64,000 bases of DNA from contig NZ_JBFEFL010000001.1 of the NCBI RefSeq assembly GCF_040717445.1, positions 1,364,001 through 1,428,000 of the forward strand, read 5' to 3'. The position numbers and the translations under genes were made by a program. The notes beneath the pieces were generated by a model. That model did no database searches and was not told where the DNA came from. It saw only the letters and a list, made by a program, of their open reading frames with translations. The DNA is from Qipengyuania sp. JC766. Lineage in GTDB: Bacteria; Pseudomonadota; Alphaproteobacteria; Sphingomonadales; Sphingomonadaceae. Positions 6,695 through 59,758 of the stretch are shown in pieces. Numbering within the stretch: position 1 is the stretch's first letter; each line of letters begins with the position of its first letter.

Positions 6695-6720
6695 GGAACG
6701 GGACCGTCCTGCCTGACGTT
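6695..6720 (+). promoter_or_regulatory. EcfG-type (general stress response) promoter
   Basis: GGAAC (6695-6699), 17-base spacer, CGTT (6717-6720). This matches the alphaproteobacterial sigma-EcfG consensus GGAAC-N16/17-CGTT exactly. It lies between the upstream terminator and the dehydrogenase ATG at 6757, the expected place for a promoter. The match was found by eye and is not tested. Confidence 0.65.
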
Positions 6721-43371: not shown

Positions 43372-44316
43372 ATGGACCGCGAACGCGTCATGGAAGGTAC
43401 AATCGGCACTGCGGGGCGGCTCGACAAGGCCCTGGCCGACGCGACCGGCCTTTCGAGGGAGCGGATCAAGGGACTGATCGCGGGCGGCCGCGTTGTGATC
43501 GATGGAGAGATCGGCCGGTCCGCATCGGCGAAGACGGAACTCGGCTCGTCGTTTTCCGTCCACTTGCCGCCCACCGCCGATCCACAGGCCCGTCCACAGG
43601 ACCTCGCGCTCGATATCGTCTACGAGGACGCGCACCTTCTGGTCGTGAACAAGGCCGCCGGCATGGTCGTGCATCCCGCGGCTGGCAATCCTGACGGCAC
43701 TCTCGTCAACGCGCTGCTGCACCACTGCGCCGGACGCCTCTCAGGCATCAATGGCGTGGCCCGCCCGGGGATCGTCCATCGCATCGACAAGGATACTTCG
43801 GGCCTGCTGGTAGTCGCGAAGACCGACGCCGCGCACGAAGGGCTCGCCGCGCAGTTCGCAAGGCATTCGATTGAGCGGAAATATATCGCCGTCTGCGTCG
43901 GACATCCCGTTCCGTCCGCCGGCACGATCGAGGGACTGCTCGGGCGTTCCGACGCCAACAGAAAGAAAATGGCGGTGCTCCCCAAGGATTCCTCGCGTGG
44001 CAAGCATGCCGTCACGCACTACAACACCATCGACCGGCTTGACGGCGCTTCGGTGCTCGAATGCCGGCTGGAAACCGGGCGCACCCACCAGGTGCGCGTT
44101 CACTGTGCATCAATAGGTCATCCGCTATTGGGAGATCCTGTCTATGGACGCTCACCTGCGCGGCTTCGACCGCTCCTCGCACAGCTCGATTTCAGGCGTC
44201 AGGCCCTGCATGCGGCAAGCCTCGGCTTCGTCCATCCGGCAAGCGGCGAAACGGTCCGTTTCGAGGCCGAAGTGCCGTACGATATGGCGGAACTTATCGA
44301 CCAAGCCGCTCGTTGA
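43372..44316 (+). CDS. rluD: 23S rRNA pseudouridine synthase RluD-type
   Basis: 314 residues. An S4 domain occupies about 14-62 (GRLDKALADATGLSRERIKG ... GGRVVIDG). The catalytic Asp139 is in HRIDKDTSGLLV. ERKYIAVCVGHP, GRTHQVRVHCASIGHPLLGDP and the C-terminal ETVRFEAEVPYDM fit the RluD group, which modifies helix 69 of 23S rRNA. An alternative ATG at 43390 would shorten the protein by six residues. Confidence 0.9.
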   Translation: MDRERVMEGTIGTAGRLDKALADATGLSRERIKGLIAGGRVVIDGEIGRSASAKTELGSSFSVHLPPTADPQARPQDLALDIVYEDAHLLVVNKAAGMVVHPAAGNPDGTLVNALLHHCAGRLSGINGVARPGIVHRIDKDTSGLLVVAKTDAAHEGLAAQFARHSIERKYIAVCVGHPVPSAGTIEGLLGRSDANRKKMAVLPKDSSRGKHAVTHYNTIDRLDGASVLECRLETGRTHQVRVHCASIGHPLLGDPVYGRSPARLRPLLAQLDFRRQALHAASLGFVHPASGETVRFEAEVPYDMAELIDQAAR

Positions 44317-53175: not shown

Positions 53176-53225
53176 GGCGTTTACCCTGCTTGACGACAGG
53201 TGCGATTTGGGACGACGGTGGAACC

Positions 53226-54791
53226 ATGAAAAAATCCATTCGCGTTCTGACGCTTGCCATGATCCCTCTCTTGTTGGGACCTGCCCTCGCCTCACCGGCA
53301 TTCGGGCAAGACGCCCCGACGGAGGGGGATTCCATCGTGCTCGTCGAGATGCCGATCGAGGCCGGTGTCGTCGCGGAAGATCAGCTTGCGCGGATCGCGC
53401 GAATGGACGATGCCGGTCCGATGCTCAACGCGGTCATCGCCACCAACCCGAACGCCGCCAGCGAAGCGAGCGCCGCGCTCGCCGCAGACCTGCCGCTTCG
53501 CGGCCGCACGATGCTGGTGAAGGACAACATCGAGACCCGCGAACTGCCGACCACGGCCGGCAGCCTTGCGCTCAGGGACAACCGCACCGGCCGGGACGCG
53601 CCGCTTATCGCGAACCTGCGCCGCAATGGCGGCGTGGTGCTGGGCAAGACGAACCTGTCCGAATGGGCCAATATCCGCAGCAACGAGTCCACCAGCGGCT
53701 GGAGCGCGGTCGGCGGACTCACGCGAAATCCGTTCGCGATCGACCGCAATTCCTGCGGGTCTTCTTCGGGTAGCGGGGCCGCGGTTGCGGCGGGCTTCGC
53801 ATGGGCCGCGATCGGGACCGAGACCAATGGCTCGATCACCTGCCCTGCCAGCATCAACGGCATCGTCGGTTTCAAGCCGAGTGTTGGCCTCGTGTCCCGC
53901 ACCCATGTCGTGCCGATCTCCAGCACGCAGGATACCGCCGGACCGATGGCGCGGAGCGTGGCCGATGCGGCGAAATTGCTGAGTGCCATCGCGGGGGAAG
54001 ACACGGCCGATCCGGTCACCCGGACGGTGCCGAACCGGGTGGCCGACTATTCGCAAGGCCTGGCGGAATATTCGCTCGAAGGTGTCCGCATCGGCGTGAT
54101 GCGGAACCAGATCGGGGACGACGACCGGGTTCGCGAAGTCTTCGAAGCGGCACTGGCCGACATGGAAGCGGCCGGGGCCGTGCTGGTCGATATCGAATTC
54201 GAGCCGGACAGCCAGATGTACGGGGACAGCTTCACCGTCCTGATGTTCGAACTGCGCGAGGAGATGGGCCGGTATCTTGCCTCCATCCCGCCCATCGGCG
54301 GAGACGAGACGGCCACGCCCCGGAACCTCGCCGACCTGATTGCCTTCAACGAAGCCAATGCCGGTACCGAACTGCGCTGGTTCGACCAGGATCTGTTCGA
54401 GCTTGCCGAGAGTACGACCGACCGCGAGGCCTACGAGGAAGCCCGGGCGAACGCCGTGCGCATCGCCGGCGAGGAAACTCTCGACGTGCTGCTGGCGGAC
54501 AACCAGGTCCGCTTCCTGGTCGCGCCGACGCGCGGGCCTGCGTGGATGAGCGATCTCGTCCTCGGCGACCAGTTCAACGGCAGCATCGGGTTCGGCAGTC
54601 CGGCGGCGATTGCGGGCTATCCGCACCTGACCGTGCCCATGGGCGACGTGGAAGGCCTGCCGGTCGGCATCAGCTTCTTCGGCGCGAAATGGGCCGACCA
54701 TGACGTGCTGAAGGCCGGCGCTGCCTACGAGCGCGCCCGCACGGCGGACTTGCCGGAACCGACATTCGAACGCTGGGCGCCAAGAGACTAG
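53226..54791 (+). CDS. Secreted amidase-signature family protein
   Basis: 521 residues with a signal peptide (LTLAMIPLLLGPALASPAFGQ), so exported. The amidase signature is present: catalytic Lys in MLVKDNIETREL, the Gly/Ser stretch SCGSSSGSGAAVAAGFA and the nucleophile region IGTETNGSITCPAS, giving the Ser-Ser-Lys triad. Unlike GatA it has no operon partner subunits and the signal peptide points to the periplasm. Substrate unknown. It is divergent from clpP, 109 bases apart. Confidence 0.88.
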   Translation: MKKSIRVLTLAMIPLLLGPALASPAFGQDAPTEGDSIVLVEMPIEAGVVAEDQLARIARMDDAGPMLNAVIATNPNAASEASAALAADLPLRGRTMLVKDNIETRELPTTAGSLALRDNRTGRDAPLIANLRRNGGVVLGKTNLSEWANIRSNESTSGWSAVGGLTRNPFAIDRNSCGSSSGSGAAVAAGFAWAAIGTETNGSITCPASINGIVGFKPSVGLVSRTHVVPISSTQDTAGPMARSVADAAKLLSAIAGEDTADPVTRTVPNRVADYSQGLAEYSLEGVRIGVMRNQIGDDDRVREVFEAALADMEAAGAVLVDIEFEPDSQMYGDSFTVLMFELREEMGRYLASIPPIGGDETATPRNLADLIAFNEANAGTELRWFDQDLFELAESTTDREAYEEARANAVRIAGEETLDVLLADNQVRFLVAPTRGPAWMSDLVLGDQFNGSIGFGSPAAIAGYPHLTVPMGDVEGLPVGISFFGAKWADHDVLKAGAAYERARTADLPEPTFERWAPRD

Positions 54792-56213: not shown

Positions 56214-57851
56214 TTACTTGGCGGTCGTCTTCTTGGCGGCCGGCTTCTTCGCAGGCGCCTTCTTGGCAGCAGCCTTCTTGGCCGGTGCCTTCTTTTCGGA
56301 AGCGTCGTCGGCCTTGGCCGCCGGCGCCTTCTTGGCGGCCGGCTTCTTGGCCGGAGACTTCTTGGCGGGGGCTTTCTTGGCGGGCGCCTTTTCGCCCTCG
56401 TCGCCGGCAGCCTTGGCTTCGGTCTTCTTGGCTTCCGCCTTTTTCGCCGGAACCTTCTTAGCGGGCGCCTTCTTGGGAGCGGCCTTCTTGGCCGGAGCCT
56501 TGGCCTTTTCGGCCTCGGCGTCTTCTTCCGCCTCGATCGCGGCTTCCAGTTCCTCGCGAGTCACTTCGCGCTCTTCGATCTTGGCCTTTTCGAACAGGAA
56601 GTCGACGACCTTGTCTTCGTAAAGCGGCGCACGGAGCTGCGCGGCTGCCATCGGCTCGTCCTTGATGTACTGGATGAAGCGCTCACGGTCCTCGGCGCGG
56701 TATTGCTGCGCGGCCTGCTGCACGAGCATGGACATTTCCTGCTGCGTGATCTGGACGTTGTTGGCCTGCCCGATCTCGGACAGCAGCAGGCCGAGCCGCA
56801 CGCGCCGTTCGGCGATGCTGCGGTAATCGTCCTTCTCTTCCTCGATTTCCTTCAGGGCCTTGTCCGGATCCTCTTCCTTGGCGGCTTCCTGCTGGAGCTG
56901 CTGCCAGATCTGGGAGAATTCGGCCTCGACCATCTTCTCGGGCACCTCGAAGTCGTGGCCGGCGGCCAGCTTGTCGAGCAGCTGGCGCTTCATCTGGGTG
57001 CGGGTAAGACCGTTGGTCTCCTGCTCCAGCTGGCCGCGCATCAGTTCCTTGAGCTTGTCGAGGCTGTCGAGGCCCAGCGCCTTGGCGAACTCGTCATCCA
57101 CCTTGGTCTCGTCCTCGACCTTCACCTGCTTGACGGTGACGGCGAACTGCGCGTCCTTGCCCTTCAGGTGCTCGGCCGGGTAATCCTCGGGGAAGGTCAC
57201 GGTGATGGTCTTCTCGTCGCCGGTCTTCACGCCGACCAGCTGTTCCTCGAAGCCGGGGATGAACTGGTTGGAACCGATCACGAGCGGCGCGTCCTCGGCC
57301 TTGCCGCCTTCGAATTCCTCGCCGTCGATGCTGCCGACGAAATCGATGATCAGCTGGTCGCCTTCGGCGGCCTTCTTCGTCTTGGCGGCGTTCTTGTAGC
57401 TCTTCTGACGCTGCGCCAGTTCGCCGATCGCTTCGTCCACGCGCTCGTCCGACACCGGGACCACGAGACGGTCGAGCGTCAGGTCGTCGGTCGAAGGCAC
57501 CTCGATTTCGGGCAGGACTTCCATTTCAACCGTCAGGACGGCGTCCTTGCCTTCCTCATAGTCCTGGTTGAGGTCGATCGCCGGCTGCATCGCCGGACGC
57601 AGCGCCTTTTCGGACAGCAGGCCGTCCACGGACTGGCGGATCGTGTCGTTCACGACCTTGGCGTGCAGCTGCTCGCCGTGCATCTTCTTCACCAGGTTCG
57701 CCGGAACCTTGCCCGGCCGGAAGCCCGGCATGCGCACCTGCGGCGCGATCTTCTTGATCTCTGCATCGACCTTGCCCGCGATTTCATCGGCGGGGATGGT
57801 CACTTCGTAGGAGCGCTTGAGGCCGCTATTGGTGGTCTCTTTGATCTGCAT
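56214..57851 (-). CDS. tig: Trigger factor with long Lys/Ala/Pro-rich tail
   Basis: 545-residue ribosome-bound chaperone; the usual length is about 430-450. The ribosome-binding signature is [15 protein letters not shown] in the N-terminal domain. The FKBP-type PPIase domain is in the middle ([40 protein letters not shown]). The helical C-terminal domain ends near residue 448. After it, residues about 449-545 are a low-complexity tail of [12 protein letters not shown]-type units with one acidic interruption, like histone H1 tails. The gene follows a tRNA-Leu gene on the same strand. Confidence 0.97.
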
Positions 57852-57915: not shown

Positions 57916-58000
57916 TGGTGCGGGCGAAGGGACTCGAACCCCCACATCTTGCGATACTGGTACCTAAAACCAGCGCGTCTACCAATTCCGCCACGCCCGC
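57916..58000 (-). tRNA. tRNA-Leu (anticodon UAG)
   Basis: 85-nt class II tRNA on the minus strand, with CCA encoded. Acceptor arm GCGGGCG pairs with CGCCCGC; the anticodon arm is CTGGT-TTTAGGT-ACCAG, so the anticodon is UAG, reading CUA. The D-loop GGAATTGGTAGACGC and the T-arm GGGTTCGAGTCC are standard, and the variable arm is long as in leucine tRNAs. Confidence 0.95.
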
Positions 58001-58102: not shown

Positions 58103-58128
58103 GGAACACGGGCGCGCCGCCTCGCGTT
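58103..58128 (+). promoter_or_regulatory. EcfG-type (general stress response) promoter of the microprotein cluster
   Basis: GGAAC (58103-58107), 17-base spacer, CGTT (58125-58128), 23 bases before the ATG of the 77-residue protein. It is an exact consensus match and has the same spacing as the motif at 6695. Confidence 0.65.
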
Positions 58129-58151
58129 TGCACAGGGAAAGGACAGTTACG

Positions 58152-58385
58152 ATGCGTGACTACGACGAACCGGAAAAGCCCGCCGACACTCCGCCGGTGA
58201 TCGACCCGGCCACGAAGCCGAAGACCTCGGAAGAGATGGAGGCCGATGGCGAAGCGGAAGAGGCGCTCCTCGAGAGGCAGACCGCCCCTTCCGAAATCGA
58301 AACCGAACTCGGGGTCGAACTTACCGAGCGCAACAGGCGCGACGGCCTCGGCGAAGCCGACCTGGACTCGCTTCCGCCCGACTGA
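58152..58385 (+). CDS. Acidic hypothetical microprotein (77 aa)
   Basis: 77 residues, strongly acidic and Pro-rich at the start (MRDYDEPEKPADTPPVIDPA). The remainder (SEEMEADGEAEEALLERQT ... ELGVELTERNRRDGL) looks mostly helical or disordered. No signal peptide, no membrane helix, no cysteine. AAAGGA precedes the ATG. First gene of a three-gene series with 24- and 50-base gaps. No family recognised. Confidence 0.7.
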   Translation: MRDYDEPEKPADTPPVIDPATKPKTSEEMEADGEAEEALLERQTAPSEIETELGVELTERNRRDGLGEADLDSLPPD

Positions 58386-58409
58386 AACCGACACAAGAGG
58401 ATTACCCGC

Positions 58410-58589
58410 ATGGCTACCCAGCCCGACCCGAACCCCGATACGATCAATCCCGGCTCTCCGAACGAGATGCCGCCCGACAGCGTACCGCCCGAAGCCCCGC
58501 CGTCGCAGCCGGACGAGATCGACCCGCCCGGCCCCGACATCGACAATCCGGGCCGCACGCCGATCGAGACGCCTCCTCCACCGGATTGA
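58410..58589 (+). CDS. Proline-rich hypothetical microprotein (59 aa)
   Basis: 59 residues, about one third proline, with many Asp/Glu and no Lys, Cys or aromatic residue. It reads MATQPDPNPDTINPGSPNEM and ends in TPIETPPPPD, so it is probably disordered. An AAGAGG site lies 9 bases before the ATG, good support for a real gene of this size. It lies between the 77-residue protein gene and the DUF3297 gene. Confidence 0.65.
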   Translation: MATQPDPNPDTINPGSPNEMPPDSVPPEAPPSQPDEIDPPGPDIDNPGRTPIETPPPPD

Positions 58590-58639
58590 GGTGCGGGATT
58601 GGCTTGTGAAGAGCCGGCTCCCGGCATAAGGGCGCGCGC

Positions 58640-58948
58640 ATGAGCGACGATCAGAACCAGCAGGCCGACCAGACGGCGGCCTCCGACACCCCACCGGACC
58701 GCCTTTCCGTGAACCCGCGCAGCGAACACTTCGACGCGGACAAGCTCCAGCGCGGCATCGGGATCCGGTTCAAGGATCGTACCCGGACCGACATCGAGGA
58801 ATACTGCATTTCCGAAGGCTGGGTCCGGGTCCAGGCCGGCAAGACGGTCGATCGCAAGGGTCAGCCGCTGACCATCAAGCTGAACGGCCCGGTCGAGGCG
58901 TGGTACGAAGATCTGGGCGACGAACCGCCGGTCGCGAAAAAAGGCTGA
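58640..58948 (+). CDS. DUF3297 family protein
   Basis: 102 residues. Acidic N-terminus (MSDDQNQQADQTAASDTPPD), then the DUF3297 core: RLSVNPRSEHFDADKLQRGI, GIRFKDRTRTDIEEYCISEG and WVRVQAGKTVDRKGQPLTIK. The family is small, conserved in proteobacteria and of unknown role. Third gene of the microprotein cluster behind the EcfG-like promoter, if transcripts run through the 50-base gaps. It converges with a CHAP-domain gene 9 bases on. Confidence 0.88.
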   Translation: MSDDQNQQADQTAASDTPPDRLSVNPRSEHFDADKLQRGIGIRFKDRTRTDIEEYCISEGWVRVQAGKTVDRKGQPLTIKLNGPVEAWYEDLGDEPPVAKKG

Positions 58949-58957
58949 TTACGACAT

Positions 58958-59758
58958 TCAGTCGTAACGCGAGAGGACATCCACCAGCGGATCTCTCGCC
59001 GCTGGTTTGCGATCCGCTTTCACCGCGACATTGCGCTCCTGCCTGACGGGCTGCGGCTGGACCTTCGCCCTCGGTGCCGGTTGGGCCAGCGTCGCGAAGG
59101 CGTCGGCAAATCCCGTGGACTTGCGCGACCGCGGCTGTTCCGGCGGGCGAGCCGCGCGCGCCTGCTCGGTCTCGGCCTGTGATGCCTTCGCAATTGCCTG
59201 CCCCGTGTTTCCGGTATCGCGGGCGATGCGCTCCAGCGCGCCGGGCTTGCTCTTCGAAGAGTAGATGAAGCCATGGACCGGCCAGGCCGTCTTTCCGAGG
59301 TCCTTGATCGGGGCATACCACACCCGGACCTGGCTCCAGTCGTTGTTCGGCGACACGTCGATCGCCTTCACATTGCGTTCGATCTGCCCCCGTCGCCCGT
59401 TGATCGGCGACCAATTGGCGTGGTCGAGCAGGACCGTGCGGCTATCGATGATCTCGCTGACGGCGGCGACATGGCCCAACCGCATGTTCCCGTGGGGCTG
59501 GAAGGCCATGACCGCTCCGACGCGGGGCGTGTTCCCGCGCTCGTAGCGCCCGGCCGCCTGCCCCCACCACGTATGCGCATCGCCGTAGATCGCGACGCCG
59601 GAGAGCTGCCGCGCATAGGGAACGCACTGGAGATAGGCCGGCAATTCCGCCGCGGGCTGGCTGCGCGATCTTTCGGTCCCTGCAAAATCCTCCGCTCCTG
59701 CTGCAGAGGGGAGCCAAAGAACCGCCAGGCACGGCGCCAGATAGATCGCTCTTTTCAT
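58958..59758 (-). CDS. Secreted CHAP-domain peptidoglycan amidase/endopeptidase
   Basis: 266 residues with a signal peptide (YLAPCLAVLWLPSAAGAED). The CHAP domain (about 36-130) has its catalytic Cys45 in LQCVPYARQLSG and His96 in MRLGHVAAVSEI; GNTPRVGAVMAFQPHG and LLDHANWSP complete the motif set. A long, basic, Ala/Pro/Gln-rich disordered tail follows from about residue 185. Probably cuts peptidoglycan in the periplasm. Start region carries a CtrA-like site. Confidence 0.88.
   Translation of the reverse strand: MKRAIYLAPCLAVLWLPSAAGAEDFAGTERSRSQPAAELPAYLQCVPYARQLSGVAIYGDAHTWWGQAAGRYERGNTPRVGAVMAFQPHGNMRLGHVAAVSEIIDSRTVLLDHANWSPINGRRGQIERNVKAIDVSPNNDWSQVRVWYAPIKDLGKTAWPVHGFIYSSKSKPGALERIARDTGNTGQAIAKASQAETEQARAARPPEQPRSRKSTGFADAFATLAQPAPRAKVQPQPVRQERNVAVKADRKPAARDPLVDVLSRYD

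Follow-up and report, generated by a model that had tools for sequence, protein, structure and literature searches.

A proline-rich microprotein family of the Sphingomonadaceae, encoded beside tig and likely under EcfG control

The window, by which we mean the whole 64-kb stretch of DNA that was analyzed, carries a group of three closely spaced genes behind a predicted EcfG-type promoter, with the gene for trigger factor (tig) on the opposite strand upstream of them. The gap between the acidic and the proline-rich gene is 24 nt and that between the proline-rich gene and DUF3297 is 50 nt. The features are as follows:

56214–57851, minus strand: tig (trigger factor; Pfam Trigger_N, FKBP_C and Trigger_C), the head-to-head neighbor of the proline-rich gene
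57916–58000, minus strand: tRNA-Leu between tig and the promoter (ARAGORN)
58103–58128, plus strand: EcfG-type promoter, an exact match to GGAAC-N17-CGTT that ends 23 nt before the ATG at 58152
58152–58385, plus strand: acidic microprotein ORF, 77 aa, 31% D+E, net charge -16, ending in PPD before the stop
58395–58401, plus strand: AAGAGGA, the ribosome-binding site of the proline-rich gene as read from the sequence, ending 8 nt before the ORF
58410–58589, plus strand: proline-rich acidic microprotein ORF, 59 aa, 36% P, net charge -11, the conserved core of the finding
58640–58948, plus strand: DUF3297 ORF, 102 aa, the lineage-specific last gene of the unit (PF11730, E 1.6e-38, 130.8 bits versus a gathering score of 27)
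58948–58968, no strand assigned: hairpin between DUF3297 and a CHAP gene that converges on it, resembling a terminator on the minus strand but weak, as the region has 2 terminator-like sites versus 1.4 expected in shuffles

Re-reading of the sequence bore out all of the coordinates that a preliminary description of this DNA had given for the promoter box, the three ORFs and the gaps, together with its mention of a good ribosome site before the 59-residue ORF and its identification of the third gene as DUF3297. Its statement that nothing is known of the first two proteins also held, in that neither microprotein matched any family in Pfam (E up to 10) or in NCBIfam and PHROGs (E up to 1).

A protein-only search identified relatives of the proline-rich protein in 122 of 397 Sphingomonadaceae genomes, representing 41 of 96 genera, with a single copy in 117 of the 122 carrier genomes. 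The 59-residue frame, whose absence from relatives had been named beforehand as grounds for rejecting the preliminary description, is thus kept in relatives. Within the order, 246 genomes gave 66 matches, every one of them in Sphingomonadaceae, in a sample whose number of genomes from other families is not given; the 3 matches from 240 genomes of the class likewise all belong to Sphingomonadaceae. No plasmid-borne copy was found by tblastn with one family member, a search that is weakened by the low-complexity filter. Among 36 independent pairs with usable dS, six same-genus pairs have dN/dS values of 0.05–0.36, 3 pairs have values >1, and the pair holding the window gene has a value of 0.90; across 1503 pairs the median is 0.48 and 99% are <1, with synonymous sites near saturation in most. 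Judged by these substitution ratios, the proline-rich frame is under purifying selection in same-genus pairs.

Gene neighborhoods were counted at 101 of the 127 loci, the omitted ones being four from G175, G186, G246 and G092 and the 22 weakest. The tig gene lies head-to-head within 700 nt at 81 of the 101 loci, and the tig-adjacent loci span 22 of 33 genera (82 loci, admitting one at 1.2 kb). Nineteen loci are without tig within 1.3 kb; their scores are mostly lower, the exact promoter box was found at 4 of them, and they may include unrelated proline-rich proteins. DUF3297 stands downstream of the proline-rich gene at 38 of the 101 loci, in 15 genera, and where it does not follow, the next gene varies, based on a by-eye reading of translations at 40 loci. 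The three-gene order that had been proposed as a unit is therefore a local form and not itself what is conserved, given that tig adjoins far more often than DUF3297 follows and that the acidic gene is rarer still. Rather, as far as gene order across these genomes indicates, the conserved unit is the promoter and the proline-rich gene beside tig, with the acidic gene as an optional member and DUF3297 as a lineage-specific downstream neighbor.

The acidic family was identified in at least 21 of the 397 genomes, a lower bound because no more than 13 candidates were scored per genome in a search seeded with six rows that share a PPD ending and so favor such members. The acidic gene can lie on either side of the proline-rich gene, and 5 of the 21 genomes have it without one. 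At least 16 of the 21 acidic loci have the exact box, a lower count because several acidic genes were assigned starts that are too far upstream. At two of these 16 loci a proline-rich gene comes first and the box stands before that gene. Profile–profile comparison of the acidic and proline-rich families gave an hhalign probability of 0.5% over 11 columns, a result that is subject to composition bias and few rows.

DUF3297 is present in 189 of 199 Sphingomonadaceae genomes, and most of its loci (81 of 107 unique ones) have no microprotein genes. The exact box was absent from all 74 loci without microproteins (those of the 81 with 650 nt available) and present at 22 of the 26 with them. In addition, the accessible text of PMC3751524 places a Caulobacter DUF3297 gene in a list of iron-response genes. 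Given that listing and the predominance of loci without microproteins, DUF3297 is not an EcfG gene as such. No solved-structure relative of it was found by sequence, and comparison of its model (pLDDT 75, pTM 0.56), with a small beta-barrel (SH3/Sm-like) fold in view, gave no match of significance, the best Foldseek E being 0.72 and the best Z 3.3 over 60 residues at 3.6 Å.

Six GGAAC-N16-18-CGTT boxes occur in the window versus 1.47 expected, a number that none of 100 shuffles reached, with two of the six overlapping on opposite strands. Over the whole genome, however, the 34 GGAAC-N16-17-CGTT sites are not enriched relative to the 31 sites of a reversed control pattern, so that a single match proves little and the case against chance has to be positional and comparative. 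A reader might accordingly suppose that chance produced both the promoter and the two small ORFs that precede DUF3297, since the genome-wide box count is about that of the control and GC-rich DNA yields many open frames. That explanation is already contradicted by the occurrence of the protein family in 122 genomes, by the purifying selection in same-genus pairs and by the distribution of the box itself, and we consider it highly improbable. An exact GGAAC-N16/17-CGTT was found within 450 nt upstream at 50 of the 101 proline-rich loci, versus 0.39 expected from shuffles of two-base blocks and 1 on the opposite strand. With a relaxed box, GSAAC-N16/17-CGTW, which adds GCAAC and CGTA (the latter an extension introduced in this analysis), the number rose to 70 loci, versus 1.5 expected from shuffles and 4 when the reverse strand was read, and 66 of the 70 fall among the 82 tig-adjacent loci. 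GCAAC ranks among the two most frequent -35 boxes of EcfG in Sphingopyxis granuli, in which the -10 element is flexible, according to the available text of PMC7083833.

Fifty-two of the 66 relaxed boxes at tig-adjacent loci end 21–40 nt before the proline-rich start codon, and 11 sit 221–319 nt upstream, where an acidic-family gene was found in 10 of those 11 genomes. Toward tig, these stretches carry the exact box at 1 of 101 loci, so tig does not look EcfG-driven. Seven tig-adjacent genera without DUF3297 downstream (g2, g37, g43, g45, g75, g76 and g96) have the exact box at 13 of 44 loci and the relaxed box at 32 of 44. Three genera count against a general-stress transcription unit. In genus g37 the gene is beside tig at 9 of 9 loci, but a box, exact or relaxed, was found at 1 of 9; none was found at the 2 loci of g3 or the 1 locus of g86.

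The genome also encodes the expected regulators. NepR was recognized by Pfam (58.6 bits versus a cut-off of 25.7), although it missed the stricter NCBIfam NepR equivalog (22.4 of 100), and PhyR scored 358.7 against a profile cut-off of 240. Directly behind nepR is an ECF sigma ORF that passes Sigma70_r2, r4_2 and the sigma70-ECF superfamily and matches no listed NCBIfam equivalog. The same kind of box lies 29 nt before phyR and 70 nt before the nepR–sigma gene pair, as predicted by the autoregulation for which EcfG is known. Since the genome has genes for PhyR, NepR and an ECF sigma factor, and since the promoter is conserved far beyond it, EcfG control of the unit, as originally claimed, is likely.

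Other boxes were noted in the window. An exact GGAAC-N17-CGTT at 44289–44314 on the plus strand lies 71 nt before rpoH (sigma-32), a position that suggests that EcfG may feed the heat-shock sigma factor. Another exact match, at 6695–6720 on the plus strand, is followed after 36 nt by a 459-aa ORF, a putative aldehyde dehydrogenase as judged from its translation. A GGAAC-N18-CGTT match at 53220–53246 on the plus strand shares bases with a start codon and probably arose by chance.

To characterize the proline-rich proteins themselves, 80 unique tig-adjacent members were aligned. Their mean composition is approximately one-third proline and one-fifth D+E, with 1% aromatics and no cysteine. The alignment holds 106 bits of position-specific information versus 39–45 bits in eight composition-preserving shuffles that were realigned, and a core, P[DN]x[IV]xPx[SAP]PxE, is present in 77 of the 80 versus 0.085 in shuffles, with shared ancestry included in both comparisons. 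The recurring motifs are the core P-D-x-I-x-P-x-x-P-x-E and, near the end, P-D-x-D-x-P...P-x-E-T-P-P. Such conservation in relatives, together with the frame and the family, upholds the claim that the 59-aa protein is genuine. The microproteins are very hydrophilic and, as had also been claimed, probably disordered; all 80 proline-rich proteins fall on the disordered side of a charge–hydropathy plot, a lenient test that also places DUF3297, modeled as mostly folded, on that side. In genus g45 (L248 and L253), ~40 further residues at the C terminus lengthen the proline-rich protein; they include GGVLQSNLD and finish with GSVE.

The reading that we favor, and hold to be somewhat probable, is that the locus is a general-stress transcription unit whose 59-aa product is a disordered cytosolic peptide that presents conserved short linear motifs to a protein partner or partners. 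Under stress, PhyR would titrate NepR and so free EcfG, which would then start at 58103 and transcribe all three genes, acidic, proline-rich and DUF3297. The core product would be the 59-aa P/E/D-rich protein of this undescribed Sphingomonadaceae family, most likely cytosolic, disordered and extended, and its core and near-terminal motifs would be displayed to at least one protein partner during stress. This proposal builds on the promoter, frame, family, neighborhood and conservation apparent in the genomes compared; induction by stress would be expected by analogy with established EcfG biology. We infer partner binding based on the logic that a bulk protectant would need a composition and not an order of residues, so that conserved order and motifs favor a linear-motif peptide.

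The same EcfG-driven unit could instead produce bulk protectants: disordered, highly charged, hydrophilin-like proteins that need no specific partner and that shield other proteins or hold water under osmotic stress or drying. This alternative, the idea of the preliminary description, which we regard as possible but doubtful, is consistent with the strong hydrophilicity and charge, with the EcfG-type promoter and with the encoding of two distinct acidic microproteins by a single unit; position-specific conservation far above that expected from composition argues against it, as does the presence of one copy per genome in nearly all carriers. Hydrophilins are defined by glycine >6% and hydrophilicity >1. 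Both window proteins fall short of this definition (the proline-rich protein has 5.1% glycine and a hydrophilicity of 1.32, the acidic protein 5.2% and 1.15), and in the proline-rich family glycine exceeds 6% in 21 of 80 members and hydrophilicity exceeds 1 in 62 of 80, so that it is the glycine criterion that mostly fails.

A further explanation would make the proline-rich ORF a translated leader or a pausing element that acts in cis, in which polyproline would stall ribosomes in an EF-P-dependent manner and thereby tune the downstream gene. PPD is a ribosome-stalling triplet, PPP and PPD stretches do occur, and PPD directly precedes the stop in 34 of 80 proline-rich proteins and 20 of 21 acidic ones (the seed rows of the acidic search all having this ending). 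However, the gene to be tuned differs between genera, with DUF3297 in place at little more than a third of loci, and conservation runs along the whole peptide and not the stall site alone. We judge this explanation very unlikely.

For a linear-motif peptide with a partner, trigger factor is a candidate, since its gene is adjacent, it is an isomerase acting on prolines and it has a basic tail in this family. Specifically, the proline-rich microprotein might be a stress-induced ligand of the prolyl-isomerase domain and/or the long lysine-rich tail, by which the ribosome-bound chaperone would be parked or redirected once growth ceases; we consider this specific proposal unlikely. Conserved gene order beside tig can simply be inherited. 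The window trigger factor has a lysine/alanine/proline-rich, histone-H1-like C-terminal tail of ~120 residues, with a weak match to Pfam HC2 that is below the cut-off, and a brief literature search found no paper on such a tail. Co-occurrence of the tail and the proline-rich gene was considered as a sign of binding and set aside: a long K/A-rich tail is present in every completely read tig, both beside the proline-rich gene (81 of 82 read completely) and at DUF3297 loci without it (23 complete of 25, absence being judged at the locus), and so gives no signal for or against. If the peptide does act on trigger factor, the stress response would be linked to protein folding at the ribosome, and we know of no report of such a route.

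We identified no paper naming the proline-rich family in a literature search that covered main texts and few subscription papers. The terms "trigger factor", "tig" and "proline" do not occur in the main texts of PMC6599016 and PMC7083833, as far as these are available, and the gene may stand unnamed in their supplementary tables. None of 26 of the 50 promoters in Table 1 of PMC6599016 matched the loci of the proline-rich study with up to 4 mismatches, and one exact promoter sequence from the same paper had 0 matches in the 397 genomes, which indicates that S. melonis Fr1 or a near strain is probably not in the sample. The EcfG regulons of Sphingomonas melonis Fr1 and Sphingopyxis granuli TFA contain many genes of unknown function, according to the consulted parts of PMC6599016 and PMC7083833. 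One such EcfG unknown now gains a defined family and a rule for its recognition (promoter, core motif and place beside tig), and the 60-residue peptide with its conserved motifs is a small, testable object.

With respect to known systems, the third gene is a clear member of DUF3297 (PF11730), most of whose loci elsewhere are without microproteins. The microproteins resemble hydrophilins and LEA-like bacterial stress proteins in being small, very hydrophilic, probably disordered and preceded by a stress-type promoter, but they differ from them in being proline-rich instead of glycine-rich, in their position-specific conservation and in having no Pfam match. The closest correspondence is with the EcfG regulons of Sphingomonas melonis Fr1 (PMC6599016) and Sphingopyxis granuli TFA (PMC7083833), which, in the text available from both papers, have the same kind of box, a similar spacing to the start codon and the same regulators; we place the present finding as an undescribed protein family within a known kind of system, the EcfG regulon.
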